Shown here: positions 1 to 12,426 of the stretch, one piece after another | Layout: every line of letters starts with the position of its first letter | Position numbering within the stretch: position 1 is the first letter of the stretch | IMG/VR virus record: IMGVR_UViG_3300017971_000190 | Location: 1 to 64,000 of that record | DNA: 64,000 nucleotides | Direction: 5' to 3' (one strand) | Origin: a virus | Notes under the pieces: generated by a model | The model's input: the letters and a program-made list of their open reading frames with translations, nothing else | Told to the model about the DNA's origin: nothing | Database searches by the model: none | Program-made: the position numbers and the translations under genes

Positions 1-213
1 ACAACTGAAATGTAATTGATGTTTGCCTTTGATATGGCTGAGGCCTACGTTGAGTAGGAGAGTTCTACCGGTGGGGTCGGGTACCGGGTAGACAACTGAA
101 ATGTAATTGATGTTTGCCTTTGATATGGCTGAGGCCTACGTTGAGTAGGAGAGTTCTACCGGTGGGGTCGGGTACCGGGTAGACAACTGAAATGTAATCG
201 ATGTTTGCCTTTC
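1..213. repeat. 91-bp tandem repeat, 2.3 copies
   Basis: Units start at 1, 92 and 183; the first two are identical over 91 bp and the third diverges after about 31 bp, where the 120-nt RNA at 214 begins. Each full unit holds two hairpins: CCTAC/GTAGG (44-58) and a longer one, 65-72 with 83-91, of 8 bp with one bulged G. The array may extend left of the window. The unit is too long and lacks spacers, so it is not a CRISPR. It could be duplicated RNA modules like the rest of this region. Confidence 0.9.
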
Positions 214-333
214 GTGGGTTTACACAGACTGTGGCTCGCAGAATCTGGGGAAGTAATTGGCGGTGAAGGAAGAAAATGAGCTTGGGGCATCTGGTGAAAC
301 ATCCAGACCGACTTTAACTGCCCGCCAACCCAC
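214..333 (+). ncRNA. Structured 120-nt RNA, copy A
   Basis: The element is closed by GTGGGTT (214-220) with AACCCAC (327-333). Inside are a hairpin at 225-247 (CAGA/TCTG stacked on CTGTG/CGCAG), a second stem GGCGG (259-263) with CCGCC (322-326), and a third CTGG/CCAG hairpin. Copy B at 1307 has the same length and conserved loops but a different inner stem that still pairs (GGTAAG/CTTACC), which is true covariation. I do not recognise the family. It lies directly before a tRNA-like element. Confidence 0.75.
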
Positions 334-341
334 ATAATTTT

Positions 342-427
342 TGAGGGGCTGATGACGGTCAGAGATTGCGACTTTAAACCACAAGTCGCTAGAATTAATA
401 ACTGTGGGTTCGAGTCCCACCCCCTCG
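342..427 (+). tRNA. tRNA-like element, anticodon unclear
   Basis: Acceptor TGAGGGG (342-348) pairs with CCCCTCG (421-427), and a perfect T-arm GTGGG-TTCGAGT-CCCAC directly precedes the 3' strand. The D-like hairpin CTGA-TGACGG-TCAG follows the acceptor with no U8-A9 linker. The anticodon-like arm is GCGACTT/AAGTCGC with an 8-nt loop, so it is too long and no anticodon can be read safely. It could be a decayed tRNA or a tRNA mimic. Confidence 0.5.
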
Positions 428-909
428 TTCCAGCAAGTTCCTAGAACATCTAAGAAGCTGTGATTGTATTGGGTCAGTGGCCTGTGCAGTACACAGTGGA
501 GACGGTTCGTTTAAGGAACGAGCTGCCTTTAGTCGAGATCCCGCGTTGGCGACTAGAGGGTTGGCAGTACCAATGCAGGGGTGCGAGGTGGGTAAGTCGG
601 TCTGGTAGATTTTACCTGTTTGTAATCCAGCGACACCACTTCAATAAATGGGACTAACAGGTCTCAACCATCTTTCGTTGTCACAAGTCGGTTGAGTATT
701 CACAAGATGACAACTAGGAGTGAGGACACTAGCTTGAGTGCTTCAACGGTTTCGGCTCAAGTCCATAGCCCTTCTCCGAAAAATTGATTGAAAACCGTTT
801 ACGCCTACACGGAGTTGGGGGTTCTACAGTTGTAGGAAGAGCTTAAAAACCCAAAGTAACAGGTGGGGCTACCGGGATGTATCTTTCCCTTTCAGTGTAA
901 GCCTGTTGC
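428..909 (+). other. Gene-free, hairpin-rich segment
   Basis: No convincing protein gene is visible. Perfect hairpins occur at 482-496 (CTGTG/CACAG), 561-573 (TTGG/CCAA), 663-696 (CTCAACC/GGTTGAG) and 733-761 (CTTGAG/CTCAAG). Around 595-640 there is a stretch resembling a tRNA D-arm followed by a TGT anticodon loop, but no matching T-arm or acceptor follows. The segment probably carries further structured RNAs of the same kind as its neighbours. Confidence 0.4.
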
Positions 910-967
910 GGTAGGGAGAGTGGTGGACACGCTTGCCCCAACCCTCTACCCGAATTTTTCGTTTTTG
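910..967 (+). terminator. Probable intrinsic terminator
   Basis: GGTAGGG (910-916) pairs with CCTCTACC (944-950) around a 27-nt loop, followed by T-runs at 955-959 and 962-966. The loop contains a GGTGGACACGC stretch typical of leucine/serine tRNA D-arms, so it may be a terminator built on tRNA debris. Confidence 0.5.
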
Positions 968-1039
968 GTAAATGGAAGGTTGGCCTAAAAGCAGCCATCC
1001 TTTAAAGAGTGAGGCGAAGACCTGTTGCTCGGATTTTTG

Positions 1040-1292
1040 CTGTGAGAGGCTTGGGTACGGTTAATCTCACAGGTTCCACGCGAGTCAAAAACGTAAAGTC
1101 GCTTTTTACGTAAATAGATTTGGGAGTGGCTCTCCCTAGCGTGCTGAAACAGGAGTACTTTCGGTTAAGTGAGGAGGCACCCCGGAGACGGTAAGGCCGA
1201 ATCCCTCTTTGGCGTAGCAGCACACCATTTACCTTTTTCAGCCCCGTACCAAGTGTCCTATGGAGTTCGGGTTTAAATACTCCTCTTGGTAC
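1040..1292 (+). ncRNA. Cluster of strong hairpins (structured RNA)
   Basis: There are consecutive perfect hairpins: CTGTGAGA/TCTCACAG (1040-1072), ACGTAAA/TTTACGT (1091-1111), GGGAG/CTCCC (1122-1136), and a two-level hairpin GTACCAAG/CTTGGTAC (1246-1292) enclosing GGAGT/ACTCC. No ORF with a ribosome binding site is seen. The boundaries of the individual RNAs are not defined; this is either one large RNA or several small ones. Confidence 0.45.
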
Positions 1293-1306
1293 GCATTTTC
1301 AACCTT

Positions 1307-1426
1307 GTGGGTGTACTCAGACTGTGGCTCGCAGAATCTGAGGCAGTAATTGGTAAGAGATGAAGCTAATGAGCTTGACACCTGTAAAATAAGTTGCAGG
1401 GTGACTAAAACTGCTTACCAGCCCAC
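1307..1426 (+). ncRNA. Structured 120-nt RNA, copy B
   Basis: This is the second copy of the RNA at 214-333, of identical length. The outer stem is GTGGGT (1307-1312) with GCCCAC (1421-1426), the inner stem GGTAAG (1352-1357) with CTTACC (1414-1419), and the conserved hairpin lies at 1318-1340. Shared single-stranded blocks are AGTAATTGG, AATGAGCTTG and GACTnnAACTGC. Stems differ from copy A but keep pairing. It is followed by a T6 run and a further RNA ending in a terminator. Confidence 0.75.
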
Positions 1427-1431
1427 ATTTT

Positions 1432-1514
1432 TTGAGTTGCCCCCTAAGCACTGGTCTAACGATCCTGCTTAGGTGATCGGGGAGTGGATGGTACCTGAAG
1501 CTCCCCACTTTTTT
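1432..1514 (+). terminator. Two-hairpin RNA ending in terminator
   Basis: CCTAAGC (1443-1449) pairs with GCTTAGG (1467-1473). It is followed by GGGGAG (1479-1484) with CTCCCC (1501-1506) and a T6 tract at 1509-1514, a standard Rho-independent terminator. It ends whatever transcript contains copy B of the 120-nt RNA. Confidence 0.6.
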
Positions 1515-1601
1515 GGAAGATGAACGGGAAGGCCGGGCATTAGTGCACAGTGTCGTACCGGTTCGACTCCGGTTTGGAAATCCAAGTTCTTGGCATCTTC
1601 C
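1515..1601 (+). ncRNA. tRNA-like RNA with displaced T-arm
   Basis: An 8-bp terminal stem GGAAGATG (1515-1522) / CATCTTCC (1594-1601) encloses a perfect T-arm ACCGG-TTCGACT-CCGGT (1557-1573). Unlike a tRNA, an extra hairpin TTGG-AAAT-CCAA (1574-1585) sits between the T-arm and the 3' acceptor strand. No anticodon arm is evident, so it is not a usable tRNA by the normal rules. Confidence 0.45.
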
Positions 1602-1983
1602 TTGAAAAACCGCCAGAGGAATTACACGTTATAATCTGGCCTCTACAGAGAGTAAAAAATGTGAGGTTGTGAGTGCTTTTCCAAAAACTCTCACCCGACA
1701 TAAGTTGGATTTAGTGTCTTGTGCAGTCATAGATGGGAGGCGTTGAACTCTGGTCACCAGGTTGGAGGGAGCCAACAGTGAAATACCATCCATTGGCATT
1801 AAATTGTATAAATACAACAATTTGTGTTGGGTAATTTTCAGTTGCAACCCCTGGGTTCTGAGGTATTTGCCGGTAGCCTGCAGAACAGGGAAGTCCCGTA
1901 GCCGGATGGGTTTGGTAGTAGAACCTCTGACCCTTTTAATTGAGTCAGTAGCTGTACACTAAGAAAAAACTACCACTTTTTCG
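1602..1983 (+). other. Gene-free, hairpin-rich segment
   Basis: No supported ORF. Hairpins: CCAGA/TCTGG (1613-1639), GTGAG/CTCAC (1669-1694, first copy of a dispersed GTTGTGAGTG element), CTGG-TCA-CCAG (1750-1760), GTTGG/CCAAC (1761-1776), TTGTAT/ATACAA (1804-1817), GTTCTG/CAGAAC (1855-1886) and CTGAC/GTCAG (1927-1948). Confidence 0.4.
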
Positions 1984-2049
1984 GAGCCTGTAATTTAAAT
2001 GGAAAAAGAAGCGTTAGCCTATTTCTAGGCTCGAATCCTAGCAGGTTCC
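1984..2049 (+). pseudogene. Shortened tRNA-like element
   Basis: Acceptor GAGCCTG (1984-1990) pairs with CAGGTTC (2042-2048), directly after T-arm CTAGG-CTCGAAT-CCTAG (2025-2041; C replaces the usual first T of the loop). U8-A9 is present. Only 34 nt remain for the D and anticodon arms, about 7 too few, and no 5-bp anticodon stem forms. It is probably a decayed tRNA or an armless mimic. Confidence 0.45.
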
Positions 2050-2304
2050 TTAAAGGGTGTAGTCTCCCTCCTGGGGAAACATTTCCTGGGTTATTTGGCC
2101 ATAAAAGACTACAACGCAAATCGAAAGTGCTTGTTGAATTGATTTGTGTAATCCGAACAAGCAGTTGTGAGTGCTTCTATAAACTCTCATTTGTGAGGTT
2201 CCTGGTTGTCCAAGGATGTAAACAGGTGAGTGCTTGGGTGTGTATTCTCGCTCAAGACTGGGCAGGCGAATTGACGCTAGCGAAGCTTGGCCTCACATTT
2301 TTAA
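2050..2304 (+). other. Gene-free segment with hairpins
   Basis: A long hairpin TGTAGTC (2058-2064) / GACTACA (2107-2113) is followed by the second copy of the GTTGTGAGTG element (2164-2190). A weak promoter-like pair, TTGACG (2271) and CACATT (2294), would start transcription at about 2305, the 5' end of the next tRNA-like element. An overlapping reading frame of about 100 codons (from 2127) has no ribosome binding site and crosses the RNA structures, so I do not call it. Confidence 0.35.
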
Positions 2305-2414
2305 TCCCTATGATAGAGGATCTACTGATCATTCTAGAACGGTCGGTTGGCAGAAAAAGCTTGTTGGACCCAACTTGTTTTTCTGTTGTCCTGGTTCGAT
2401 CCCAGGATGGGGAA
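2305..2414 (+). tRNA. tRNA-like element with giant variable arm
   Basis: Acceptor TCCCTAT (2305-2311) pairs with ATGGGGA (2407-2413), next to a perfect T-arm CCTGG-TTCGATC-CCAGG (2390-2406). Between the anticodon region and T-arm lies a very long hairpin (CAGAAAAA/TTTTTCTG with inner GTTGG/CCAAC), far larger than a Ser/Leu variable arm. The putative anticodon loop ATTCTAGAAC is 10 nt, so TCT (Arg) or even CTA (amber) could be read, neither safely. Confidence 0.45.
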
Positions 2415-2529
2415 CTAAAGCACTTGGTTGTGAGTGATTCCTAAAACTCTCGGTTGTTGGTATACCAGGGTACTAACAATCTTAACACCTGGAAAAGCGT
2501 TTTGGTAGTTATCGTCAATAAATTGCTCT
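2415..2529 (+). other. Third GTTGTGAGTG copy and hairpin
   Basis: The third copy of the dispersed GTTGTGAGTG...ACTCTC element lies at 2427-2452, followed by a CCAGG/CCTGG hairpin (2465-2492). No ORF is supported here. Confidence 0.4.
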
Positions 2530-2580
2530 ACTTGAGTGACGCCGGGCTCTCCTCAAGTGGTAAAACCCGGCAACCTTTTT
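2530..2580 (+). terminator. Intrinsic terminator with overlapping stem
   Basis: GCCGGG (2541-2546) pairs with CCCGGC (2566-2571), followed by T5 (2576-2580). The terminator loop contains CTCAAGT, which is complementary to ACTTGAG just upstream (2530-2536), giving either a pseudoknot or an alternative hairpin that would hide half of the terminator. It closes the 1-2.5 kb RNA region. Confidence 0.75.
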
Positions 2581-2587
2581 ATTTTTC

Positions 2588-2616
2588 TTGACTTCCTTCT
2601 TTTAGCACAGCATAAT
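2588..2616 (+). promoter_or_regulatory. sigma70-type promoter
   Basis: TTGACT (2588-2593), 17-bp spacer, CATAAT (2611-2616). It sits between the strong terminator and the gene at 2649, with a good ribosome binding site following. It matches the promoter pattern seen elsewhere in the window. Confidence 0.75.
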
Positions 2617-2648
2617 AATTGGTGTTAAACAGCTAAAAGGAGTCACAA

Positions 2649-3140
2649 ATGGTGCAGCAACACAAAATCCGAGAAGGCGTCCCCTACACCGATGGTAAAT
2701 CCATCAGAGTTATTGTTGATACTGAAGCTGGGAGTTTTGAGAACGGCACACCCGTGTATTATAGAACCACCCGAGACCTTTTCAAGGAAGTACACGAATG
2801 CTCTTTGGGAGCGTTTGCTCGGTGGGCAACACTGCAACACGAAGAGCTGTCAGATCAAATCGTACTGGCTATTCGCCCAAATAACGGAGCAGATGTTCTC
2901 CCAGACAATCTAGAAACCAGGGTGACAAGGATTTTGAAGACCGAGATTCTGAAAATTGAAGCCGGTTTGGGAACCGTTTCTTTTAATAAAAACGTAATTC
3001 CAGCCAAACTGCTGAGACAGTTGATTCAGGATTACGAAACACTCTACGGCTCAGAAACGCTTAATATCGAAGTAGTTTTCAGTCTTTTCCTTGACGGTGC
3101 GGTGGACCGCACGGAATTCCGGTTTAAGTCTGAACAATAA
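2649..3140 (+). CDS. Hypothetical protein (163 aa)
   Basis: I do not recognise this protein. It is soluble, with no signal peptide, membrane segment or cysteine cluster, and has a mixed alpha/beta composition. The ATG follows AAAAGGAG with ideal spacing. It is the first gene after a clear promoter (2588) and terminator, so it is expressed as its own unit, possibly with the tRNA-Glu region downstream. Its position at the head of an accessory/tRNA block suggests an early protein, but that is inference. Confidence 0.8.
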   Translation: MVQQHKIREGVPYTDGKSIRVIVDTEAGSFENGTPVYYRTTRDLFKEVHECSLGAFARWATLQHEELSDQIVLAIRPNNGADVLPDNLETRVTRILKTEILKIEAGLGTVSFNKNVIPAKLLRQLIQDYETLYGSETLNIEVVFSLFLDGAVDRTEFRFKSEQ

Positions 3141-3230
3141 AGGGAGTTCGAGCTAGCGCTTCTTCCTGAGGGGCTTTGGTCCTGAAAATTCTAGCACACA
3201 CACGCTTTTATCAAGAAAGGAGATAGGATT

Positions 3231-3266
3231 ATGAAGCGCATTCCTGTTAACCTAATCAACCTCTAA
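3231..3266 (+). CDS. 11-codon minigene / leader peptide
   Basis: A perfect AGAAAGGAG ribosome binding site precedes an ATG that opens only 11 codons (MKRIPVNLINL) before TAA. It is immediately followed by a folded RNA (3298-3368) and tRNA-Glu. The strong start signal on such a short frame suggests a leader peptide or attenuator-like role rather than a functional protein; the codons show no run of one amino acid. Confidence 0.4.
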   Translation: MKRIPVNLINL

Positions 3267-3297
3267 CCCTCCCACTTAAAGCTGAGTTAGCACTCAG

Positions 3298-3368
3298 GTC
3301 CGGTTGGTGGACGTACCAGAGGAAGTATTCTGTGTTCGTTGGTACCGACACAGGGTATTAAACCGGAC
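3298..3368 (+). ncRNA. tRNA-like folded RNA before tRNA-Glu
   Basis: An 8-bp terminal stem GTCCGGTT (3298-3305) / AACCGGAC (3361-3368) is followed by a D-arm-like GGT-GGACGT-ACC hairpin and a CTGTG...CACAG arm whose loop starts TTCG, like an enlarged T-arm. No anticodon arm can be drawn. It ends 5 nt before tRNA-Glu, so the two would be processed from one transcript. Confidence 0.4.
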
Positions 3369-3372
3369 ATCT

Positions 3373-3444
3373 GGCCCCATCGTTCAATGGTTAGGACACA
3401 GGATTTTCATTCCTGAGATCGGGTTTCGACTACCCGTGGGGTCA
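3373..3444 (+). tRNA. tRNA-Glu (TTC)
   Basis: This is a full cloverleaf: acceptor GGCCCCA/TGGGGTC, D-arm with GG, anticodon loop TTTTCAT with anticodon TTC, and T-arm CGGGT-TTCGACT-ACCCG, discriminator A, 72 nt. CCA is not encoded, so host nucleotidyl transferase must add it. Confidence 0.95.
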
Positions 3445-3474
3445 ATAAACTATTAAAAGAAAGGTCATACTACA

Positions 3475-3663
3475 ATGGTGGAAAAGGAAAACAGTTTCTA
3501 CAAAGAACAATTTTCTATTTTGCAAAGGCGTCTTCGTGGTTCCATAGAAGAAGCAAAGAAGGAAGGAGACACGAAGAGAGAGATTGCTCTTCTGAGGGTA
3601 GGTTGTGACGTTGCGAACATTTTGAAGGGTGTGAACATAAATTACAACCCTCCTGGTTACTAA
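3475..3663 (+). CDS. Hypothetical small charged protein (62 aa)
   Basis: Not recognised. It is a Lys/Glu-rich, probably alpha-helical small protein with one cysteine and a hydrophobic C-terminal end (NYNPPGY). The start is chosen at the ATG after AAAGAAAGG. It lies between tRNA-Glu and tRNA-Met and ends 7 bp before the latter, so mRNA and tRNA precursors share a transcript. Confidence 0.7.
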   Translation: MVEKENSFYKEQFSILQRRLRGSIEEAKKEGDTKREIALLRVGCDVANILKGVNINYNPPGY

Positions 3664-3670
3664 AAGTTTA

Positions 3671-3743
3671 GGGCTCGTCGTCTAATTGGTAAGGCTCCAA
3701 GCTCATAACTTGGTCATTCGGGTTTCGATCACCCGCGAGCCCA
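3671..3743 (+). tRNA. tRNA-Met (CAT)
   Basis: Acceptor GGGCTCG/CGAGCCC is perfect; the anticodon arm is CCAAG-CTCATAA-CTTGG (anticodon CAT) and the T-arm CGGGT-TTCGATC-ACCCG. The paired G1-C72 end suggests an elongator Met, or an Ile tRNA whose C34 is lysidine-modified; sequence alone does not settle which. Confidence 0.93.
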
Positions 3744-3746
3744 CTA

Positions 3747-3826
3747 TGTTACTGACTACCTGAGACCGCAGCTCAAAGGTTAGTAGCAGAACACCTCAAT
3801 TAAGTGACGGTAGAACACTGAGGTGT
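3747..3826 (+). ncRNA. Hairpins upstream of the 162-nt RNA
   Basis: TGAG/CTCA around 3760-3775 is followed by a perfect 8-bp hairpin ACACCTCA (3791-3798) / TGAGGTGT (3819-3826). The latter abuts the terminal stem of the next RNA and may stack on it coaxially. Confidence 0.45.
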
Positions 3827-3999
3827 GTGCAAGCAGGTACTACCGGGAAACTATTTTCTACCCTGTAACCACGTAGTTCCGAGGAGCACAAAAGAATGAT
3901 CCACCTTTTGTCCCTACCTGGAACTTAGCGTAGTTTCCCGCGTCTTTGGCGAAAGCCGTACTGCGTTGAGGATCAAACCTGCTTGCACTTTTTCTTTTT
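3827..3999 (+). ncRNA. Highly structured 162-nt RNA
   Basis: A perfect 12-bp terminal stem joins 3827-3838 to 3977-3988. Nested inside are GGGAAACTA/TAGTTTCCC (3845-3853 with 3931-3939), AGTTCC/GGAACT (3875-3880 with 3920-3925) and ACAAAAG/CTTTTGT (3888-3911), plus a GNRA-capped hairpin GGC-GAAA-GCC (3948-3957). A T-rich tract (3989-4000) follows, so the closing stem may act as terminator. I recognise no family: it is not RNase P, tmRNA or 6S by any motif I can see. tRNA-Leu begins at 4001. Confidence 0.7.
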
Positions 4000-4000
4000 T

Positions 4001-4082
4001 GCCCACATGGTGGAACAGGTAGACACGCGAATTTTAGGTGTTCGTGGCTAACGCCGTGGGAGTTCGAGTCTCTCTGTGGGCA
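4001..4082 (+). tRNA. tRNA-Leu (TAG)
   Basis: Acceptor GCCCACA/TGTGGGC, D-arm TGGTGGAACAGGTAGACACGC typical of Leu split by its loop, anticodon arm CGAAT-TTTAGGT-GTTCG (anticodon TAG), a class II variable arm, and a T-arm with TTCGAGT. 82 nt, no encoded CCA. Confidence 0.93.
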
Positions 4083-4084
4083 CT

Positions 4085-4174
4085 AGGTCATTCTAATTTT
4101 AAGTCCTGGTAATGGTGCTAGGCAAACGTGACAAGCTTTCCATCCTTCACGTTCGAGAAAAGTTAGAATGACCT
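4085..4174 (+). ncRNA. 90-nt RNA closed by 12-bp stem
   Basis: AGGTCATTCTAA (4085-4096) pairs perfectly with TTAGAATGACCT (4163-4174). Inside is AACGTG/CACGTT (4125-4153), with a possible CCTGG/CTAGG arm, giving a three-way junction. It starts 3 nt after tRNA-Leu and ends 43 nt before the next gene, so it could be a processed small RNA or a leader of that gene. Confidence 0.6.
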
Positions 4175-4217
4175 TAAATTTGTTGGGAGTTTGAGCTAAA
4201 CAAAAGAGGTACTTAAA

Positions 4218-4550
4218 ATGATTTTCACCTATGAGATAAAACGTCACAGTGTGGATTTCCTTTTCGAGGACGGCAGCTTTCATTCAATAGTGGTGGGACA
4301 AGGGCCTGGTTACTGGTACCGAATCATTTCAAAATTGAGAGAGTTGGGAAAAGAGATAAATCCGGAAGACTTTGACCAGGGTATAGAACGTCTATACTAC
4401 GATTACGCCACCGAGGAACTGAGAGGAAAAACAGAAAAGCAGAAAGAATTGGGATACTTTACCTGTCCCCAGTGCAACGTGATTTATCCTTGTCGTTCTT
4501 TCAAATATCAAAATCCTTGCGACAACTGTCGTTATGTAAAAATTACCTAG
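4218..4550 (+). CDS. Zinc-ribbon hypothetical protein (110 aa)
   Basis: The N-terminal 80 residues are unrecognised. The C-terminus carries a zinc ribbon with C83-x2-C86 and C101-x2-C104 (plus C92), which probably binds one zinc ion. Such small phage zinc ribbons often contact nucleic acid or protein partners, but no function can be assigned. The ATG follows AAAAGAGG. The stop is immediately followed by a conserved folded RNA motif (4551). Confidence 0.75.
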   Translation: MIFTYEIKRHSVDFLFEDGSFHSIVVGQGPGYWYRIISKLRELGKEINPEDFDQGIERLYYDYATEELRGKTEKQKELGYFTCPQCNVIYPCRSFKYQNPCDNCRYVKIT

Positions 4551-4612
4551 TCACTTCGTGGTTAGGAGTGGGGCAATGGAATTGAGAAACCCCCTAGAGG
4601 TTATTGGGCAAA
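4551..4612 (+). ncRNA. Conserved 62-nt RNA motif, copy 1
   Basis: It begins with the CAC-TTC-GTG mini-hairpin followed by GGAGTGGGGCAnTGGnATT and ends with GGTTATTGGGCAAA. The same order of blocks recurs at 4888-4950 with different connecting sequence, which suggests a folded RNA under selection. Both copies precede a tRNA or tRNA-like element. Confidence 0.5.
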
Positions 4613-4639
4613 AAAGAAAGCAGGAAAGATAGATTAATA

Positions 4640-4700
4640 GTTCACATGGTAGTTTAGGTACCAGCGGGAAACCGTGTAGGTTCGAGTCCTACTGTGGGCA
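4640..4700 (+). ncRNA. Cloverleaf tRNA mimic without anticodon arm
   Basis: All parts pair: acceptor GTTCACA (4640-4646) / TGTGGGC (4693-4699), a D-like hairpin TGGTA-GTTTAGG-TACCA, a minimal hairpin CGG-GAAA-CCG with a GNRA tetraloop where the anticodon arm should be, and a perfect T-arm GTAGG-TTCGAGT-CCTAC. Discriminator A at 4700. Its 3' end resembles tRNA-Leu at 4001. At 61 nt it cannot decode; it may be a tRNA mimic or decoy, or a tRNA-Leu remnant. Confidence 0.55.
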
Positions 4701-4703
4701 CTA

Positions 4704-4874
4704 GTTGGTAGTTCTGGGAGACCTTGGTGAAACACTCCATGGGAACCCACGGTAAAAACGAGACGTGGTAGGTTGTGTAGGTAACTACAGAGCCCTTCTA
4801 TCTAGTTACTCCTTGAGGGTAACGGGGGTAGTCGGATCTTGTTTTTAGAAACAAGGCCCACCTGAACTACCAAC
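4704..4874 (+). ncRNA. Highly structured 171-nt RNA
   Basis: An 11-bp perfect terminal stem joins GTTGGTAGTTC (4704-4714) to GAACTACCAAC (4864-4874). Internal hairpins are CCACG/CGTGG (4747-4768), TGTAG-GTAA-CTACA with a GNRA loop (4776-4789), GTTAC/GTAAC (4805-4823) and CTTGTTT/AAACAAG (4838-4855). It resembles the RNA at 3827 in size and plan (long closing stem, GNRA hairpin) but not in sequence. Family unknown. Confidence 0.7.
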
Positions 4875-4887
4875 AACTTCTTCCTAA

Positions 4888-5056
4888 GCACTTCGTGTTT
4901 GGGAGTGGGGCACTGGCATTTTAAAGTCCAACTCCATGTGGTTAGGGCAAACCAGTTCAAGACTTGGGCCTTTTGGCTAGCCCAGATGTATTTCTGATTG
5001 CCGACAAGTTACAGGCTGGTTGATACCAATTACCACGAAAGAAAGAGCTAGCCACT
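4888..5056 (+). ncRNA. Conserved RNA motif, copy 2, and hairpins
   Basis: Positions 4888-4950 repeat the CACTTCGTG...GGAGTGGGGCA...GGTTAGGGCAAA motif of 4551. Downstream, TGGGC/GCCCA (about 4964-4985) and AACCAG/CTGGTT form further stems. The segment ends just before tRNA-Ser and contains no ORF. Confidence 0.5.
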
Positions 5057-5059
5057 ATG

Positions 5060-5144
5060 GGAAGGATGACCGAGCGGCTGAAGGTACACGCCTGCTAAGC
5101 GTGCGTAGGGAAACCTACCGAGGGTTCGAATCCCTCTCCTTCCG
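5060..5144 (+). tRNA. tRNA-Ser (GCT)
   Basis: Acceptor GGAAGGA/TCCTTCC, anticodon arm CACGC-CTGCTAA-GCGTG (GCT), long variable arm CGTAGG-GAAA-CCTACCG as expected for class II, T-arm GAGGG-TTCGAAT-CCCTC. Discriminator G, as in bacterial serine tRNAs. Confidence 0.95.
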
Positions 5145-5150
5145 ACGCAG

Positions 5151-5246
5151 TTGGCCCCGCTGCACATCCTATCGAGAATAATTACCACAGATGTGTGTAC
5201 ACAAAGATGCTAGGATCTTTATTTGTGGTGGTTATTCTAGGGGCAA
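5151..5246 (+). ncRNA. Long-hairpin RNA (96 nt)
   Basis: TTGGCCCC (5151-5158) pairs with GGGGCAA (5240-5246) with one bulge. An inner helix of AGAATAA+ACCACA (5175-5189) with TGTGGT+TTATTCT (5224-5238) is broken only by a TT/GG internal loop. It lies between tRNA-Ser and the tRNA-like element at 5249. Confidence 0.55.
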
Positions 5247-5248
5247 TT

Positions 5249-5378
5249 GGCAGAGTGGCGAAACGAAAAGAGGCCCATACTAGTTAACCTCTTTCTTTGG
5301 TAAACGCGCGGTAACTCCGTGATTGGTCAATCAGTTAACTGGTTCACTATCTTCCAGGTTCAAATCCTGGCTCTGTCA
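5249..5378 (+). tRNA. tRNA-like element with ~60-nt insertion
   Basis: Acceptor GGCAGAG (5249-5255) pairs with CTCTGTC (5371-5377), and the perfect T-arm CCAGG-TTCAAAT-CCTGG (5354-5370) is in its correct place, discriminator A. The intervening stretch is about 98 nt rather than 41 and contains hairpins AAAGAGG/CCTCTTT, CGG/CCG and GATT-GGTC-AATC. It is far too short for a group I intron. No anticodon can be assigned. Confidence 0.5.
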
Positions 5379-5461
5379 AGATGCTATCGCATACACTGCC
5401 TTCAAAAAGTGTATTGACAAATTAAAAAATGTTGTCACAAGACTACTAGGAGGTATTAATC

Positions 5462-5632
5462 ATGGAAAGACTTATTTATCGCTTTATTCCTAACGTTGAG
5501 ACCTTAATTGAGCAATACGAGTTGGAAGGTTTCGAGGTGCGGGGATACAGTGAGTACAGTTCTGACGGGATTCCTAGGGTGGCTGAGATGGTCAAGTGGG
5601 TTTCTGATAAACCGTCTCAAGAAAAGGAATGA
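5462..5632 (+). CDS. Hypothetical small protein (56 aa)
   Basis: Not recognised. This short soluble protein starts at an ATG preceded by the very strong ribosome binding site AGGAGGT. It lies between a tRNA-like element and tRNA-Pro. A TTGACA box is present at 5414 but no good -10 follows, so it is probably read with the RNA cluster. Confidence 0.75.
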   Translation: MERLIYRFIPNVETLIEQYELEGFEVRGYSEYSSDGIPRVAEMVKWVSDKPSQEKE

Positions 5633-5657
5633 TTTTTGATTTTCTTCTCTTTCTTTT

Positions 5658-5732
5658 CGGGGAATAACTCAGTCTGGTAGAGTGCCTGCTTTGGGAGCAG
5701 GAAGTTCGCAGGTTCGAATCCTGTTTCCCCGA
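5658..5732 (+). tRNA. tRNA-Pro (TGG)
   Basis: Acceptor CGGGGAA/TTCCCCG, D-arm with CTCAGTCTGGTAGAG, anticodon arm CCTGC-TTTGGGA-GCAGG (TGG), T-arm GCAGG-TTCGAAT-CCTGT. C1-G72 is the usual proline identity pair. No encoded CCA. Confidence 0.95.
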
Positions 5733-5735
5733 TTA

Positions 5736-5768
5736 AGTTTATTTTTCAAAGTACACGAAAAATAAACT
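5736..5768. terminator. Perfect 11-bp A/T hairpin
   Basis: AGTTTATTTTT (5736-5746) pairs with AAAAATAAACT (5758-5768). With A-runs on one arm and T-runs on the other it could terminate in either direction, though GC content is very low; it might instead separate tRNA-Pro from the next tRNA-like unit for processing. Confidence 0.45.
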
Positions 5769-5798
5769 ACCTCACTGGTACAGAGGTTAAAGTACTGT

Positions 5799-5959
5799 GG
5801 ACAAGTGTTGTGCAGAGGGTAGCACAGAGAGTAAGCTAACGAAAAGCGAAACCTGCCGTGCGAGAAGAGCAGGTCCACGGTGTAATCGGAATGCCTCTAG
5901 TGTGGTGCACCACAGCTAGTTTTAATGCCAATGAGAGGTTCGATTCCTCTCCTTGTCCA
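5799..5959 (+). tRNA. tRNA-like element with ~85-nt insertion
   Basis: Acceptor GGACAAG (5799-5805) pairs with CTTGTCC (5952-5958). The D-arm GTGC-AGAGGGTA-GCAC is normal and the T-arm GAGAGG-TTCGATT-CCTCTC is correctly placed (6 bp). Between them lie about 105 nt with hairpins ACCTGC/GCAGGT and GTGGTGCACCAC instead of a 17-nt anticodon arm. It may be a tRNA interrupted in the anticodon region or a larger tRNA-like RNA. Confidence 0.5.
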
Positions 5960-5961
5960 AA

Positions 5962-6205
5962 TGTTGGGTTGGTACTTTACCAACGACAACAGCTTTCTTC
6001 GGGAGCCCGGAAGAAAGGCTTAACCAGCGCCAGTGAGCTTCAATGGGTCGTGCACACACCGCGTTGAAGATGACTCTGGGGTAGTAGGAAGGTGCACAGA
6101 ACGGCAAACTAGGCTTTTCCTAGGTTGGCTTCTAGGCACCGATCCCTCCTTCAGTGGTGTGTGGGGCTTGGTTGTTCGTTCACACAGGGCTCAATTTTAA
6201 AAATT
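5962..6205 (+). ncRNA. Structured RNA between tRNA-like unit and gene
   Basis: Hairpins in series: TTGGT/ACCAA (5969-5983), a long GCTTTCTTC/GAAGAAAGGC arm (5992-6019), CTTCAA/TTGAAG (6038-6069), then GGTGC/GCACC (6091-6140) enclosing AACTAGG/CCTAGGTT (6107-6126). The overlapping reading frames here follow the hairpins and lack ribosome binding sites. Unknown function. Confidence 0.5.
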
Positions 6206-6219
6206 ATTAAAGGTGAAAA

Positions 6220-6417
6220 ATGAAGCTAACTAAAAAACAAGAAAAATTGGTAAAAGAGGTTATTGGAGACGGCACCGATTTTCCAAAATTTACAAACGAC
6301 CCTTATGTTAATCACAGAGTAGACATGCTTGTTTGTGACTGTCCACCTTGGGAGGAGTTGAGTAAGGAAGAGCAAGATTTGTATTTTGAGGAAGTAGAAG
6401 CTTCTAAAATGGAATAA
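6220..6417 (+). CDS. Hypothetical acidic protein (65 aa)
   Basis: Not recognised. The first 20 residues are Lys-rich, then the protein becomes acidic with a C-x-C pair in the middle and an EE-rich helical end. The ATG follows AAAGGTGA. It sits between folded RNA and tRNA-Gln (6439). Confidence 0.7.
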   Translation: MKLTKKQEKLVKEVIGDGTDFPKFTNDPYVNHRVDMLVCDCPPWEELSKEEQDLYFEEVEASKME

Positions 6418-6438
6418 TTATTAATAGTATTGTTTCTT

Positions 6439-6510
6439 TGAGGCGTAGGCAAACGGTAAGCCACGAATTTTTGGTGTTCGGCATTGGAGGTTCGAATCCT
6501 CCCGCCTCAA
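6439..6510 (+). tRNA. tRNA-Gln (TTG)
   Basis: Acceptor TGAGGCG/CGCCTCA, D-arm with AAACGG loop, anticodon arm CGAAT-TTTTGGT-GTTCG (TTG), T-arm GGAGG-TTCGAAT-CCTCC. U1-A72 at the end of the acceptor is typical of glutamine tRNAs. Confidence 0.94.
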
Positions 6511-6512
6511 AA

Positions 6513-6662
6513 ATGAAAAAAGAAAAACCTTTGAAGGATTTACTGCCGAATCCATGTTGTTGCAGTTTTCCCATGGAACCATTGAAAGTAACAAAACCAC
6601 TTAGAGAAAAATTGTGGAAGTGTCTCAAGTGTGGTAAGTTGATCTATAAATACAAAAACTAG
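6513..6662 (+). CDS. Small zinc-ribbon protein (49 aa)
   Basis: A CCC triplet at residues 15-17 and a C-x2-CG pair near residue 38 suggest a small zinc-binding protein. The chosen ATG lies 2 nt after the tRNA-Gln discriminator base, with no ribosome binding site; tRNA 3'-end processing would leave an essentially leaderless mRNA. Reading the frame further upstream would run through the tRNA, so this start is preferred. Confidence 0.5.
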   Translation: MKKEKPLKDLLPNPCCCSFPMEPLKVTKPLREKLWKCLKCGKLIYKYKN

Positions 6663-6665
6663 TGC

Positions 6666-6755
6666 GGAGTGTATAGTGTTTAAATGGCAACACGGCTAGT
6701 GGCTAACGGGTCATACCTGCCAGGCAAAAGTGGGTTCAAATCCTGCAACACTCCA
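6666..6755 (+). tRNA. tRNA-like element, 90 nt, anticodon unclear
   Basis: Acceptor GGAGTGT (6666-6672) pairs with ACACTCC (6748-6754). The D-arm GTGTT-TAAATGGC-AACAC and T-arm GTGGG-TTCAAAT-CCTGC are present, but one extra A separates T-stem and acceptor. The middle contains TCATACC and CTGCCAG (possible CAT or GCC anticodons) without a proper 5-bp stem. Confidence 0.45.
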
Positions 6756-6824
6756 TATAATGTTTAGCGAGAGACAAGCAGTTGGGCTCTCGTGGCGACT
6801 TTGTAGAGGGTGTACAATTTTTCT

Positions 6825-6897
6825 GGGCGATTAACTCAGTTGGCAGAGTGCAATCTTTACGCGGTTGAAGTCACAGGTTCAAACCCTGTATCGCCCA
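6825..6897 (+). tRNA. tRNA-Val (TAC)
   Basis: Acceptor GGGCGAT/ATCGCCC, D-arm CTCAGTTGGCAGAG, anticodon arm CAATC-TTTACGC-GGTTG (TAC), T-arm ACAGG-TTCAAAC-CCTGT, discriminator A. A CGAGAG/CTCTCG hairpin lies just upstream (6770-6792). Confidence 0.95.
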
Positions 6898-6905
6898 AAA
6901 AGAAG

Positions 6906-6934
6906 TTGACTTTACCACTACTCTGTGTTAGCCT
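6906..6934 (+). promoter_or_regulatory. sigma70-type promoter for small RNA
   Basis: TTGACT (6906-6911), 17-bp spacer, TAGCCT (6929-6934) preceded by TGT, an extended -10. Transcription would start at about 6941, immediately before a folded, terminator-ended RNA with no ORF. Confidence 0.6.
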
Positions 6935-6940
6935 TTTCTT

Positions 6941-7053
6941 AATCCGTGAGAGATCAGGCTCAACTGCTCTCACGGGGTTGTCAACGGGGTGGGCCAATCC
7001 CCTGACGGCGGGAGCTGCGTTTCCTTTTGGAAGCAGTCTCCCGTTTTAATTTT
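6941..7053 (+). ncRNA. Stand-alone small RNA (~110 nt)
   Basis: Between its own promoter (6906) and terminator (7009-7053) lie a hairpin CCGTGAGAG/CTCTCACGG and a GGGG/CCCC arm. No start codon with a ribosome binding site is inside. This is the best-delimited small RNA of the region. It lies upstream of the gene at 7073 and could instead be an attenuated leader of that gene. Confidence 0.6.
7009..7053 (+). terminator. Intrinsic terminator
   Basis: CGGGAGCTGC (7009-7018) pairs with GCAG-t-CTCCCG (7033-7043), followed by TTTTAATTTT. It closes the small RNA and separates the RNA region from the following gene block. Confidence 0.8.
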
Positions 7054-7072
7054 AGAAAGGAAACAAAGCACC

Positions 7073-7273
7073 ATGGTAGAAGAAAAAGAAACCTACGAAG
7101 CTATCAATTTTGGTTGGGACGGTGATGATTTTGTAACCGAAGATGTTACAGGCAAAATTCGTCGCTATCACGGTGCCAAAATTACCGACGTTAAGCGAGA
7201 GTGTTCTGTGGAAGTTCAAGACGGTAAAGTGATTGGACACTTTTCGTTTCAATTACCGAAAAAGAAAGGCTAA
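7073..7273 (+). CDS. Hypothetical protein (66 aa)
   Basis: Not recognised. It is a small acidic protein rich in beta-forming residues, ending in a basic KKKG tail. The ATG follows GAAAGGAAACA; longer upstream frames cross the terminator and are rejected. It ends 4 bp before the next gene, suggesting one operon. Confidence 0.7.
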   Translation: MVEEKETYEAINFGWDGDDFVTEDVTGKIRRYHGAKITDVKRECSVEVQDGKVIGHFSFQLPKKKG

Positions 7274-7277
7274 GAGA

Positions 7278-7565
7278 ATGACTATGGTAAAAGAACACGA
7301 ACTTAAGTATGGGGTAGATGGTTGCCTCTTAACCTGGCAAAACCCTTTTCCTGAAGAAGTAACCTGTGCTTGTTGTGGAAAAGAAGGTGCACGTTTAGCT
7401 TTTGTTCTACAAGAATCAGGCAAAAAGGAGCACGCTTGTAATTTATATCAAAACGATCCGGATGGAGAGGGATTTTGGGTGCACGATTCAGCTGCTTTTG
7501 CAGTTTATTTGTGCAGAGATATTAATTGCCCTGAAAAAGCTACCGCTAAGTGGAATCAAGCTTAA
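7278..7565 (+). CDS. Cys-rich zinc-binding hypothetical protein (95 aa)
   Basis: It contains a C30-x-C32-C33 cluster and C79/C84 near the end, spaced as a split zinc site. No known domain. The start at 7278 is chosen because the longer frame overlaps the preceding gene; a second ATG follows 2 codons later. It ends 9 bp before tRNA-Lys. Confidence 0.7.
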   Translation: MTMVKEHELKYGVDGCLLTWQNPFPEEVTCACCGKEGARLAFVLQESGKKEHACNLYQNDPDGEGFWVHDSAAFAVYLCRDINCPEKATAKWNQA

Positions 7566-7574
7566 AATATTTTT

Positions 7575-7647
7575 GGGTCCTTAGCTCAGCTGGTAGAGCA
7601 CCGGACTTTTAATCCGTAGGTCTTCGGTTCAAACCCGAAAGGACTCA
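7575..7647 (+). tRNA. tRNA-Lys (TTT)
   Basis: Acceptor GGGTCCT/AGGACTC with one wobble, D-arm GCTC/GAGC, anticodon arm CGGAC-TTTTAAT-CCG.. (TTT), T-arm TCGGG-like TTCGG-TTCAAAC-CCGAA. Canonical 73 nt. It directly precedes the RNA ligase gene, which may repair cleaved tRNAs. Confidence 0.95.
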
Positions 7648-7762
7648 TTAGTTCACCCATCAGAATAGTAAGTTTTAAGGAGAAAGATCATGAAGAAGAT
7701 TGTGCCTTCAAATTGTTGTAAACAGAATCAAGTATTTAAACTTAAACGAAAGAAGAACTGTT

Positions 7763-8377
7763 TTGAAAACATACCCAAGTATGGTTTATCCTCCCTTTGG
7801 AGGATTGAAGGAGTACCTTCACACCTTTGCTAAGTTGGACGGCAGCAATCTCAGATTTGAATGGAGCAAGAAAAAAGGTTGGTACAAAGTTGGAACCCGG
7901 CATCGTCTTGTAGACGAAAGTGATTCTATTTTTGGAAAAGCTCCCCTTATTTTTCAAGAAACTTTGGCTGACCAGTGCGAGAAAATTTGTAGAGATAATC
8001 GTTGGCAGAGAGCTGTGATTTTCTGCGAGTACTATGGACCACAAAGCTTTGCTGGCCTGCATGAAATTGGAGGTACGATGACGCTAACGGTTATAGACGT
8101 AGCTCCTTACAAAAAAGGCATTTTACCACCTACTGATTTTCTAAAACTGTTTGGAGAATTAGGGCCGCATTACCTGGGATACTTGAAGTGGAATTTTAAT
8201 TTCATAAATCGAGTTCATCAGGGTTTAGAGCCTGAAGCTAGTTTTGAAGGAGTAGTTGGTAAAGCTAAAGGGAAAGGAAATACACTACTTCTCTACAAAA
8301 CCAAAACTCAAGCCTGGAAAGATGAAGTTAAAAAACGATACAGTAAGAAGGAAGCAGAAAAAATAATTCATAGCTAA
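7763..8377 (+). CDS. RNA ligase (nucleotidyltransferase superfamily)
   Basis: The N-terminus has a YPSM motif and then KLDGSN, the motif I nucleophile (K24), followed by a CEYYG element, EGVVGK (motif IV) and a KTK motif V, as in T4 Rnl2-type ATP-dependent RNA ligases. Such enzymes reseal broken RNA, classically tRNAs cut by host anticodon nucleases, and this gene follows tRNA-Lys. I prefer the TTG at 7763; a GTG at 7700 would add 21 unlike residues. A better ribosome binding site serves an ATG at 7690 in another frame (47 codons), so an initiation oddity or frameshift is possible. Confidence 0.85.
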   Translation: MKTYPSMVYPPFGGLKEYLHTFAKLDGSNLRFEWSKKKGWYKVGTRHRLVDESDSIFGKAPLIFQETLADQCEKICRDNRWQRAVIFCEYYGPQSFAGLHEIGGTMTLTVIDVAPYKKGILPPTDFLKLFGELGPHYLGYLKWNFNFINRVHQGLEPEASFEGVVGKAKGKGNTLLLYKTKTQAWKDEVKKRYSKKEAEKIIHS

Positions 8378-11303: not shown

Positions 11304-11627
11304 GTGTGTTATTTTCAGGACATTGCTGTAAAAAAAGTTGTAGTAGAAGTCATTTCCGAGCTGGTGGGAAAGCGTAAGCGCTTCACCGGTTGGGAAGTGA
11401 ATCAAAAATTACAAAACCGCAAAGGCTTTGCTCACCTTCCCCCACCCTGGCAGATCAGCTCCTATGTACGGGAACTGTTTAATGGGCATAACAGTGCTTT
11501 TTCAGGTTATGCCTGTTATCCAGTTGATGGAGGCCCCTTGCTCTATTTCCCAATTCCGTACTATGTGAGAAATCATGTCGAAAAAATCCAAAAAGAAATC
11601 CAAACGGAAGGCCAAACCGAAAAGTAA
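11304..11627 (+). CDS. Hypothetical protein (107 aa)
   Basis: GTG start after AAAGGAAAG. Residues 20-70 resemble a small winged-helix-like fold (GWEVNQKLQ, then SSYVRELF), and it ends in a charged coiled tail. The last 53 bp overlap the PARP-like gene in another frame, so the two are translationally coupled and perhaps partners, for example antidote or regulator of the transferase. That pairing is inference. Confidence 0.65.
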   Translation: MCYFQDIAVKKVVVEVISELVGKRKRFTGWEVNQKLQNRKGFAHLPPPWQISSYVRELFNGHNSAFSGYACYPVDGGPLLYFPIPYYVRNHVEKIQKEIQTEGQTEK

Positions 11628-12426
11628 CCCTTCTGTTTCGATGCCCAGTGTTCAGGAACTTTTTGGTTCCAGTTGTCGTTATCGCCTTAGCAGTTCTTTT
11701 CGTGGACCTCAATTAGAAGGTTACGAATTCTTATGTGCTTTCGAAAACAAAGTACACTCTTACCACACCCCCACAATGCAGAAGCTTGGCAATATTAAAC
11801 AAGCTTGGCATGGTACCAATAAGGCTGCACTTAAAAGCATTGCTGTGGATGGATTACTCACGCCTTTTCAGCGTCGAAAGCGAGATCGCTGGACTAGCAT
11901 ACACGGTATGTTTGGACCAGGAATTTATTTAGCTCCTAACATTGAAAAAGCGGCTATGTTCGCATGGCAGCATAAGCATTTGAAGTTTGTTCTTCAATGC
12001 TATGTTGCTTTGGGAAAACCTCATTTTGCTACTCAAACAGGAAACTATTACGAAACAGCTGAAATGGAAGACAAGCATAGTGTCATAGGTGGAAGAGGAT
12101 CACTGACTGGAGCTTGGGGTGGTAGACTCTTAAACGAAGAGTGGGTAATTTTCGATAATCAACAAGCTACTGTAGACATGGTACTCGTGTACAGATGCGT
12201 GGAAACTCCTAAGGCTACCCCATTTCGAGGCTCGATTGGACGACGATTTTATAACAGTAGTAGAGAACCACAAGGTGTTGTTCGTTACCACCCTTGCAAA
12301 CGAAATGGCAAGCTTTGTCGCAATGCTTTTGGCTCTGGTGGCTGTGTGGAAAAAGGTATAACTACTGGAGCGAGTGCCTTTTCAGATTACTGCAGAGATT
12401 ATCAAGTATCCTTGATTCACAAATAA
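11575..12426 (+). CDS. PARP-type ADP-ribosyltransferase (283 aa)
   Basis: The core (residues 75-207) matches the PARP catalytic fold: WHGT (H79), FGPGIYLA (Y118), an ALGK strand and NEEWVIFDNQQ, where E189 aligns with the PARP1 catalytic glutamate. The H-Y-E triad is thus intact, predicting transfer of ADP-ribose from NAD+. The first 18 residues are a Lys/Arg tail that may bind nucleic acid; the C-terminal 75 residues include several cysteines. Phages use ADP-ribosylation to remodel host transcription or counter defence (T4 Alt/Mod are other families). The target is unknown. Confidence 0.8.
   Translation: MSKKSKKKSKRKAKPKSNPSVSMPSVQELFGSSCRYRLSSSFRGPQLEGYEFLCAFENKVHSYHTPTMQKLGNIKQAWHGTNKAALKSIAVDGLLTPFQRRKRDRWTSIHGMFGPGIYLAPNIEKAAMFAWQHKHLKFVLQCYVALGKPHFATQTGNYYETAEMEDKHSVIGGRGSLTGAWGGRLLNEEWVIFDNQQATVDMVLVYRCVETPKATPFRGSIGRRFYNSSREPQGVVRYHPCKRNGKLCRNAFGSGGCVEKGITTGASAFSDYCRDYQVSLIHK

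Follow-up and report, generated by a model that had tools for sequence, protein, structure and literature searches.

The first 7.6 kb of the window, a 64,000-nt stretch at the start of a 221,679-bp virus record, look like a cluster of RNA genes in a large phage, which in our tentative reading may encode stand-alone RNAs imitating parts of the host translation machinery besides tRNAs. Two elements carry this reading (Table 1): alignment with rRNA shows that positions 967-1233 retain the predicted fold of the 23S GTPase-associated centre (GAC), and that 1715-1802 correspond to the 23S L1 stalk. A first-pass annotation of 1-7060 had proposed an RNA-based system, not a plain tRNA array, and this proposal gains support from a covarying non-tRNA family that recurs in many unrelated phages, for the most part within tRNA arrays, and from tRNA-like elements far beyond chance. 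Its description was largely right and is confirmed in part, but missed the main content, two pieces of 23S rRNA that copy both of its mobile stalks; the interpretation as a whole is partly supported.

Table 1. Features of the RNA gene cluster
Feature	Positions	Strand	Basis or remark
Duplicated structured RNA, copy a, ~120 nt	214-333	+	Comparison with copy b
tRNA-like element; acceptor/T-arm normal, D-arm and anticodon arm abnormal	342-427	+	Acceptor/T-arm scan
Phage GAC RNA: copy of 23S GTPase-associated centre (H42-H44, uL11 site; E. coli ~1051-1108) with ~195-nt insertion	967-1233	+	
Closing helix of GAC RNA	967-975/1225-1233	+	Followed by TTTTT, 1234-1238
GAC core, 5' half (E. coli 1059-1091: H43, start of H44)	979-1011	+	39-sequence alignment
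GAC insertion (variable domain), opened by short covarying helix; subtype-A motif GGCACCCCGGAGACGGTAAGGC	1012-1206	+	
GAC core, 3' half, CTTTGGCGTAGCAGCACAC (E. coli ~1091-1104)	1207-1225	+	39-sequence alignment
Duplicated structured RNA, copy b; three compensatory pairs relative to copy a	1307-1426	+	
L1-stalk RNA: copy of 23S H76-H78 (E. coli ~2105-2188)	1708-1805	+	
11-bp closing stem of L1-stalk RNA	1708-1718/1795-1805	+	Folding
tRNA-like element, 67 nt, without normal anticodon arm	1983-2049	+	Acceptor/T-arm scan
tRNA-like element, long variable-arm-like hairpin	2305-2413	+	Acceptor/T-arm scan
Eight canonical tRNAs, small ORFs between	3372-7648	+	ARAGORN, Rfam
Canonical tRNA coordinates	3372-3445, 3671-3744, 4001-4083 (Leu), 5060-5144, 5657-5733, 6438-6511, 6824-6898, 7574-7648 (Lys)	+	
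tRNA-like element, short GAAA hairpin in place of anticodon arm	4640-4699	+	Looser rules
tRNA-like element, 129 nt	5249-5377	+	Acceptor/T-arm scan; ARAGORN only as intron-bearing tRNA-Thr
tRNA-like element, 160 nt, perfect acceptor	5799-5958	+	Acceptor/T-arm scan
tRNA-like element, perfect acceptor	6666-6755	+	ARAGORN only at lowered threshold

The GAC element of the window aligned with 23S positions 1054-1087 at 88% identity (blastn), and the predicted H43/H44 pairs and tertiary-core nucleotides of the 23S fold are present. Both halves of its core match the family consensus (5' core, GGxxGTxGGCTTAGAAGCAGCCATCxTTTAAAGAGTG; 3' core, CTTTGGCGTAxyAGCACAC; insertion between them), and the closing and insert-opening helices are kept by compensatory changes, the window pairs being GGTAAATGG/CCATTTACC and AGG/CCT. 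When positions 1-8000 were compared with 23S rRNA by Smith-Waterman alignment, the L1 element scored 37, the GAC element 26, and the sequence with both masked 16; shuffles had a mean of 15.4 and a maximum of 18. Outside the two elements, the likeness of 1-8000 to 23S therefore does not exceed that of shuffled sequence. Neither a full-length rRNA gene nor a fragment running into neighbouring rRNA helices was found in 1-8000, and the LSU model (RF02541) had no match there at the Rfam gathering score. The phage core is near-identical to the bacterial LSU GAC over E. coli 1054-1104 and shares both its conserved tertiary positions and its secondary structure, the 1058-1080 and 1092-1099 pairs among them. 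Unlike its rRNA counterpart, however, it is free-standing (~80 nt, outside an rRNA gene, with its own closing helix), sits in phage tRNA arrays, carries an insertion of 23-298 nt after 1091, and has A or G, not U, at 1101.

Relatives of this element, L116-L118 among them, amount to 39 distinct cores from cultured phages, uncultured phages and three contigs in bacterial assemblies; of eight matches to the 3' motif in bacterial assemblies, five came without a recognised 5' core and were excluded. The carriers have hosts and habitats of many kinds and include complete cultured phage genomes and jumbo phages studied for a long time (GAP32, CBB, XacN1 and pf16), where the element is unannotated, as it is in most cultured phage records. 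Across the 39 cores, both partners had changed in 15 of 20 pairs, the covariation score was 0.595 versus 0.149 for shuffled alignments (0/500; slid controls, 0.09-0.14), and 94.6% of pair cells were paired, versus 71.1% after shuffling. Positions 1057, 1059, 1060, 1077, 1079, 1081, 1083-1085, 1087 and 1088 of the tertiary fold are invariant, and 1082/1086 swap jointly (A/T replaces T/A in L128 and L129). The tips that face factors and tRNA, in contrast, vary (1067, A34/G5; 1095, A35/G3/C1; 1096, A29/G9/T1; 1097, T24/C11/A4). The insertion enters H44 at a constant site after 1091, behind a covarying helix, and is conserved within subtypes, with the motif GGCACCCC..GGTAAGG in nine cores. These alignments show that compensatory changes preserve the same predicted fold in GAC relatives from many phages, where H44 holds a variable insertion; conservation of stems in related phages, on which the first-pass claim had been staked, is thus found for this element. 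Rfam LSU models matched two members (L139, E=8e-6; L122, E=0.0017), both below the gathering score, no dedicated Rfam family matches the element, and a literature search, largely without subscription journals, found no published description. The family is widespread and apparently new to the literature.

A tRNA lies within 1 kb at 44 of 56 GAC loci and within 300 nt at 39, and essentially all tRNAs detected nearby are on the same strand; about 12 loci have none within 1 kb in the sequence examined. TTTT occurs at most 16 nt from the closing helix in 13 of the 39 members, against a background of 7.5%. The position near same-strand tRNAs fits possible processing from shared transcripts.

For the L1-stalk element, blastn gave 76% identity to E. 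coli 23S over 75 nt (E=7e-10), and a covariance model derived solely from the 23S of five bacterial species matched 1715-1802 at 56.1 bits (E=5.5e-13). It has the sequence and structure of H76-H78, retains most invariant L1-stalk positions, and shows a G-C pair changed jointly to A-U; it differs from the 23S stalk in being phage-encoded and excised at the base of H76, with its own closing stem. A scan of IMG/VR for further copies returned only one rRNA contig, which is plain 23S (L187), and one possible chimera (L186), which begins at the contig end inside the match. Since the window holds the only confident L1-stalk element, pairing with uL1 is no general rule. A permissive Rfam match to c-di-GMP-II at 1727-1796, overlapping this element, was judged chance or partial.

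Folding energy by itself is poor evidence for structured RNAs. Mean folding z-scores on the plus strand were -0.65 (1-2520) and -0.80 (3140-7000) compared with -0.24 for 12-64 kb, and the minus strand was nearly as low; because the scores separate neither region nor strands well, minimum free energy was rejected as proof of structure. Out of about ten unrelated folded RNAs claimed initially, comparison shows three to be real (GAC, L1-stalk and the duplicated ~120-nt element), and the remaining folds are unproven. Searches found no relatives for most claimed folds other than the GAC element, and the motif GACTGTGGCTCGCAGAATC of the duplicated element, searched as an exact string, had no viral match. 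Blastn and alignment comparison did not support two likenesses seen only by eye, one between 6044-6062 and 16S h44 and one between ~3311 and the sarcin-ricin loop.

ARAGORN identified seven tRNAs within 1-7060 (Glu, Met-CAT, Leu, Ser, Pro, Gln and Val), the eighth that had been counted there (Lys) lying just beyond; all eight had strong Rfam matches, and tRNAs were the only matches to reach the Rfam gathering score. When paired 7-bp acceptors next to a T-arm with a TTCRA-type loop were sought, the cluster yielded five elements uncalled by default ARAGORN, whereas there were none elsewhere in the 221-kb record on either strand and none in 200 shuffles of 1-7060; looser rules added 4640-4699 and 6666-6755. 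These five to seven elements, short of the nine or more tRNA-like elements first claimed, have the acceptor and T-arm, and a complete cloverleaf was called in none by default ARAGORN or at the Rfam gathering score; some were accepted by ARAGORN only with introns or lowered thresholds. The 3' half of 4640-4699 resembles the tRNA-Leu, with compensatory T-stem changes, and this anticodon-less element is a plausible candidate tRNA decoy. A weak permissive Rfam match of 343-426 to tRNA-Sec (E=0.85) was judged chance or partial.

About 2.6 kb of the first 7.6 kb are without a convincing gene, none of the ORFs inspected in 1-2640 being gene-like. The GC content of this segment is 0.44-0.49, higher than the 0.39 of the whole record, and it matches no described Rfam ncRNA family at the gathering score and none convincingly at E=1. 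As to the original statement that folded elements outnumber protein genes, about six small ORFs, for which no family matches were found, occupy 2649-7060. Up to ~7.6 kb, the cluster holds eight tRNAs and at least five acceptor/T-arm elements unlike normal tRNAs. Matches of 1-8000 to phages by blastn were mainly tRNAs, and IMG/VR searches with single proteins (a 163-aa ORF, DNA polymerase and terminase) found no relatives, for which a terminase alignment was required.

Known systems offer partial parallels. Ribosomal protein leaders, such as the L1-binding leader of the L11-L1 operon, mimic rRNA and, like the phage elements, imitate an rRNA protein-binding site; the phage RNAs, however, mostly stand alone among tRNAs, would act in trans if active, and are far closer to rRNA. 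No ribosomal protein gene was found directly downstream of GAC elements, whose neighbours are tRNAs and hypothetical genes. RNAs C and D of T4, stable RNAs with no assigned role in a phage tRNA cluster, are likewise structured non-tRNA RNAs made together with phage tRNAs; we know of no 23S similarity in them, and no T4 record is among the GAC matches listed. Phage tRNAs resistant to the host's anticodon nucleases (PMC10264068) are also phage RNA genes that sustain translation or evade host RNA-targeting defences, but they are true tRNAs, whereas the GAC and L1-stalk RNAs are not.

These results suggest that phages deploy rRNA-piece decoys against the host translation machinery. The best explanation, a possibility that we favour without calling it probable, is that within the tRNA cluster the GAC RNA is a decoy for uL11 and the L1 element a decoy for uL1, plausibly blunting RelA or remodelling translation. 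Both RNAs would be cotranscribed with the tRNAs and set free by tRNA processing, by termination downstream of the closing helix, or by both; the GAC RNA would bind the C-terminal domain of host uL11 and the L1 element uL1, and these exchangeable proteins would be kept off ribosomes. The insertion would be a lineage-specific module. We favour uL11 over factors as the target because the tertiary-fold positions are invariant while the factor- and tRNA-facing tips vary. As uL11 is indispensable for RelA and affects EF-G only moderately (PMC5365698), the likeliest benefit would be a block of the RelA stringent response, or other translation remodelling, during infection. Several observations count against this explanation: uL11 is abundant, and the decoy would therefore be needed in large amounts; the preserved tertiary nucleotides are also compatible with tRNA, thiopeptides or another protein as the ligand; no confident L1-stalk element was found outside the window; and about 12 of the 56 GAC loci lack a tRNA within 1 kb in the sequence examined.

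It is conceivable, if doubtful, that these are modular ncRNAs common among phages and built on excised 23S stalks, the conserved GAC core capturing uL11, the lineage-specific insertion acting elsewhere, and some phages, this one included, adding an L1-stalk copy. Given the length of the insertion and its conservation within subtypes (the nine-core motif), the core might even be a mere docking handle that, instead of titrating uL11, tethers the RNA and thereby its insertion to free uL11, stalk proteins or ribosomes, with the insertion as effector. This rather unlikely arrangement would accord with a nearly fixed core beside an insertion whose sequence and length (23-298 nt) vary, always at the same H44 spot behind a covarying helix, but not easily with L172, whose insertion is just 23 nt.

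On the ribosome, the L1 stalk grips the tRNA elbow via interdigitated T-loops (PMC4810234) and GAC A1067 stacks onto elbow nucleotide C56 (PMC5365698), so the RNAs might sense tRNAs or the RelA-tRNA complex by binding them directly. Their location among tRNAs and tRNA-like elements speaks for such binding, which we nevertheless consider improbable: five of the 39 members have G at the contact base 1067, and conservation of the H44 tip is relaxed. Isolated GAC is not known to bind tRNA by itself, which also argues against it. Thiostrepton binds between H43/H44 and uL11 (PMC5365698), and the preserved GAC fold could serve as a decoy for peptide antibiotics (thiopeptides) or GAC-attacking enzymes, shielding translation during infection; this is very unlikely, as strict conservation is seen neither at the thiostrepton-critical A1067 nor in the H44 tip, and the phages span many host kinds and habitats. 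Least probable of all is that the elements are functionless fragments of host 23S rRNA, left by recombination or produced by misassembly: viral collections do contain contaminating rRNA contigs such as L187, and L186 may be a chimera, but for the GAC family this is refuted by shared non-rRNA features (the insertion after 1091, CTTTGG, A/G at 1101), covariation throughout and occurrence in complete cultured genomes, and the conserved positions and joint pair change of the L1 element also speak against it.

No earlier phage RNA family seems to have been recognised as structurally copying an rRNA functional centre, and the GAC family gives a concrete, testable answer on the role of non-tRNA RNAs in phage tRNA clusters; the core is biochemically well understood, so binding and genetic tests are straightforward. 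The family also points to RNA mimicry aimed at the uL11/RelA axis and at the stalks of the ribosome. If the modular reading is true, both mobile stalks of the large subunit would be targeted, as a general RNA strategy against the stringent response or for re-specialising ribosomes.

Two RNA elements near the start of this virus record are almost certainly copies of 23S rRNA segments, one of the GTPase-associated center (GAC; H42-H44, the uL11 site) and the other of the L1 stalk (H76-H78). Local blastn of the window against the tRNA regions of distant relatives returned two colinear matches to a second phage (L106/L116), the first of which is the GAC, aligned by E. coli 23S positions 1054-1087. 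The L1-stalk element matched E. coli 23S 2110-2183 by blastn (76%, E=7e-10). Smith-Waterman comparison of positions 1-8000 with E. coli 23S scored 37 for the L1 stalk, 26 for the GAC with the L1 stalk masked, and 16 with both masked, against a mean of 15.4 and a maximum of 18 in 60 shuffles. A covariance model whose only source was five bacterial L1 stalks hit the same element with 56.1 bits (E=5.5e-13) and gave no other match above 16 bits in 636 kb.

Both ends of the record, which is linear (221,679 bp; window, bases 1-64000), look like assembly breaks, since the start falls within a 91-nt tandem repeat and the end is a GTC/ATC repeat. Its terminase shares ~30% identity with the terminases of jumbo myoviruses such as PaBG and NCTB; no close relative was found. 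Positions 1-2640 have a GC content of 44-49%, versus 39% in the record, and no gene-like ORF was found there. The first-pass annotation had described positions 1-7060 as an archipelago of structured RNAs around eight canonical tRNAs, seven of which lie inside these bounds and the eighth outside. Its count of at least nine tRNA-like elements falls to five by a strict rule (a 7-bp acceptor next to a T-arm, in elements that ARAGORN does not call at default settings), with two more added by looser rules; the strict rule found zero further matches elsewhere in the record on either strand and zero in 200 shuffles. One tRNA-like element carries a GAAA hairpin in place of the anticodon arm and has its 3' half in common with a tRNA-Leu, the T-stem differences being compensatory. 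Folding-energy scores of the region were only slightly shifted and scarcely favored the + strand; by-eye stem-loops are therefore not evidence in themselves. Comparative evidence supports the tRNA-like elements, a duplicated ~120-nt element, and the two 23S copies. In the duplicated element, three double compensatory changes in the 7-bp inner helix, drawn from two sequences only, are suggestive of a conserved structure. Short motifs that recur, GTTGTGAGTGCTT..AAACTCTC three times and CCTAGTCACTTCGTG..GGAGTGGGGCA twice, are perhaps further paralogous RNA elements.

Coordinates of the features (window positions unless preceded by the handle of another stretch; L012, L014, and L016 belong to the same record)
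Feature	Position	Remarks
91-nt tandem repeat	1-212	array may extend past contig end
~120-nt element, two copies	214-333; 1307-1426	
GAC element	967-1233 (+)	
Matches to second phage	972-1022; 1175-1228	
L1-stalk element	1708-1805 (+)	
L1-stalk blastn match	1720-1794	
L1-stalk model hit	1715-1802	
Recurring short motifs	1666-2457; 4546-4951	
tRNA-Leu	4001-4083	
tRNA-like element with GAAA hairpin	4640-4699	
Eighth canonical tRNA	7574-7648	
ORF with PARP catalytic domain	11575-12426	E=6e-13
Family A DNA polymerase	47036-50071	N-terminal domain is uracil-DNA-glycosylase
Second RNA-rich gap	L014:3290-4060 (record 127290-128060)	tRNA-Arg, tRNA-Tyr, terminator-like hairpins
Orphan 5' tRNA half	near L014:3893-3930	in second RNA-rich gap
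Terminase large-subunit-like ORFs, two	L012:6431-8002; L016:17133-19463 (phrog_17415)	one much weaker
L1-stalk match, IMGVR_UViG_3300000032_000059	L186:9-80 (-)	
L1-stalk-like match, related jumbo phage G024	L185:1501-1580	
23S-like element, Pseudomonas phage UNO-G1W1	L123:1303-1357	

With E. coli 23S and the L116 element as queries, unannotated GAC matches were found in the cultured phages GAP32, CBB, XacN1, XaC1, XbC2, Kaldavass, Serratia BF, several Erwinia phages, pf16, UNO-G1W1, Astolliot, Milchi, and Aeromonas 4_4572; a small predicted ORF overlies part of the element in Milchi and Kaldavass. Forty-three IMG/VR stretches match a GAC pattern built to exclude genuine 23S, and the RNA also occurs in three contigs of bacterial assemblies (L172, L177, and L178). 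In L172 and L178, which are filed as bacterial and may be prophage-bearing or phage contigs, it adjoins tRNA clusters, in L172 also with tmRNA. In all members, a 5' core (E. coli 1059-1091) is separated by an insertion of 23-298 nt (median, 166) from a 3' core, CTTTGGCGTAxyAGCACAC. The insertion site, CTTTGG, and A or G at 1101 are common to members and absent from rRNA; the members therefore form one family and do not reflect repeated capture of host rRNA. Rfam LSU models detected two members, both below the gathering score.

Pairing holds in 94.6% of pair cells across 39 distinct joined GAC cores, versus 71.1% after shuffling, and 15 of the 20 pairs show changes on both sides. The covariation score was 0.595, compared to 0.149 for shuffled cores (reached in 0/500 shuffles) and 0.09-0.14 for slid controls. 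The search pattern partly fixed core columns; the outer closing-helix columns and inner insert-helix pairs were ignored in selecting sequences, and their covariation was therefore not built in.

A tRNA lies within 1 kb of 44 of the 56 GAC loci and within 300 nt of 39, often at ≤10 nt, and nearly all of the tRNAs detected share the strand of the element. Closing helices usually span 8-17 bp; in 13 of the 39 members a T-run begins ≤16 nt past the helix, versus a 7.5% background; in the window, the helix is GGTAAATGG/CCATTTACC, followed by TTTTT. This proximity and shared strand, together with the closing helix and T-run, fit a discrete RNA that would be freed from tRNA transcripts or via its own terminator-like end.

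The L1-stalk element was seen confidently in the window phage alone, with two weak leads elsewhere. The L186 match (72 nt, 94% to 23S 2110-2181) has borders nearly those of the window element and sits at a contig end with a non-rRNA flank; it is either a second L1-stalk copy or a chimera. The L185 match is weak (22.3 bits, E=0.002) and apparently intergenic. The L123 element, also mostly intergenic, resembles a domain V segment on the H89 side of E. coli 23S (2418-2471; Smith-Waterman score of 24, against a maximum of 21 in 200 shuffles), has relatives at 310 places in 185 Pseudomonas phage records, and is possibly a third 23S-like phage RNA.

The GAC family matches no Rfam family at the gathering score, and no description was found in the open literature searched. 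RNA imitation of rRNA sites occurs in r-protein leaders, from which the phage GAC and L1-stalk RNAs differ in being stand-alone. Stand-alone phage copies of the GAC and, in a separate RNA, of the L1 stalk appear to be new.

The positions that the family keeps invariant are the ones that make up the GAC fold (among them 1057, 1059, 1060, 1077, 1079, 1081, 1083-1085, 1087, and 1088), and 1082/1086 change jointly in two members (L128 and L129), while constraint is relaxed at the tips that face translation factors, thiostrepton, and tRNA (A or G at 1067; 1095-1097 variable). The uL11 C-terminal domain recognizes the GAC fold, and judged by sequence conservation, recognition by this domain would account for the pattern more readily than would mimicry of the factor site. 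The main rival explanation is that the GAC core serves as a docking handle for the variable insertion. A uL11 decoy, here joined by a uL1 decoy, is tentatively favored, at rather less than an even chance, because of the fold-type conservation, the need of RelA for uL11, and the tRNA-elbow contacts: RelA cannot do without uL11, whereas EF-G is only moderately affected by its removal (PMC5365698); the tRNA elbow is touched by A1067 (PMC5365698) and gripped by the L1 stalk (PMC4810234). The GAC RNA would thus bind uL11 as a decoy and, in the window phage, the L1-stalk RNA would likewise bind uL1; such decoys may blunt RelA or remodel ribosomes.
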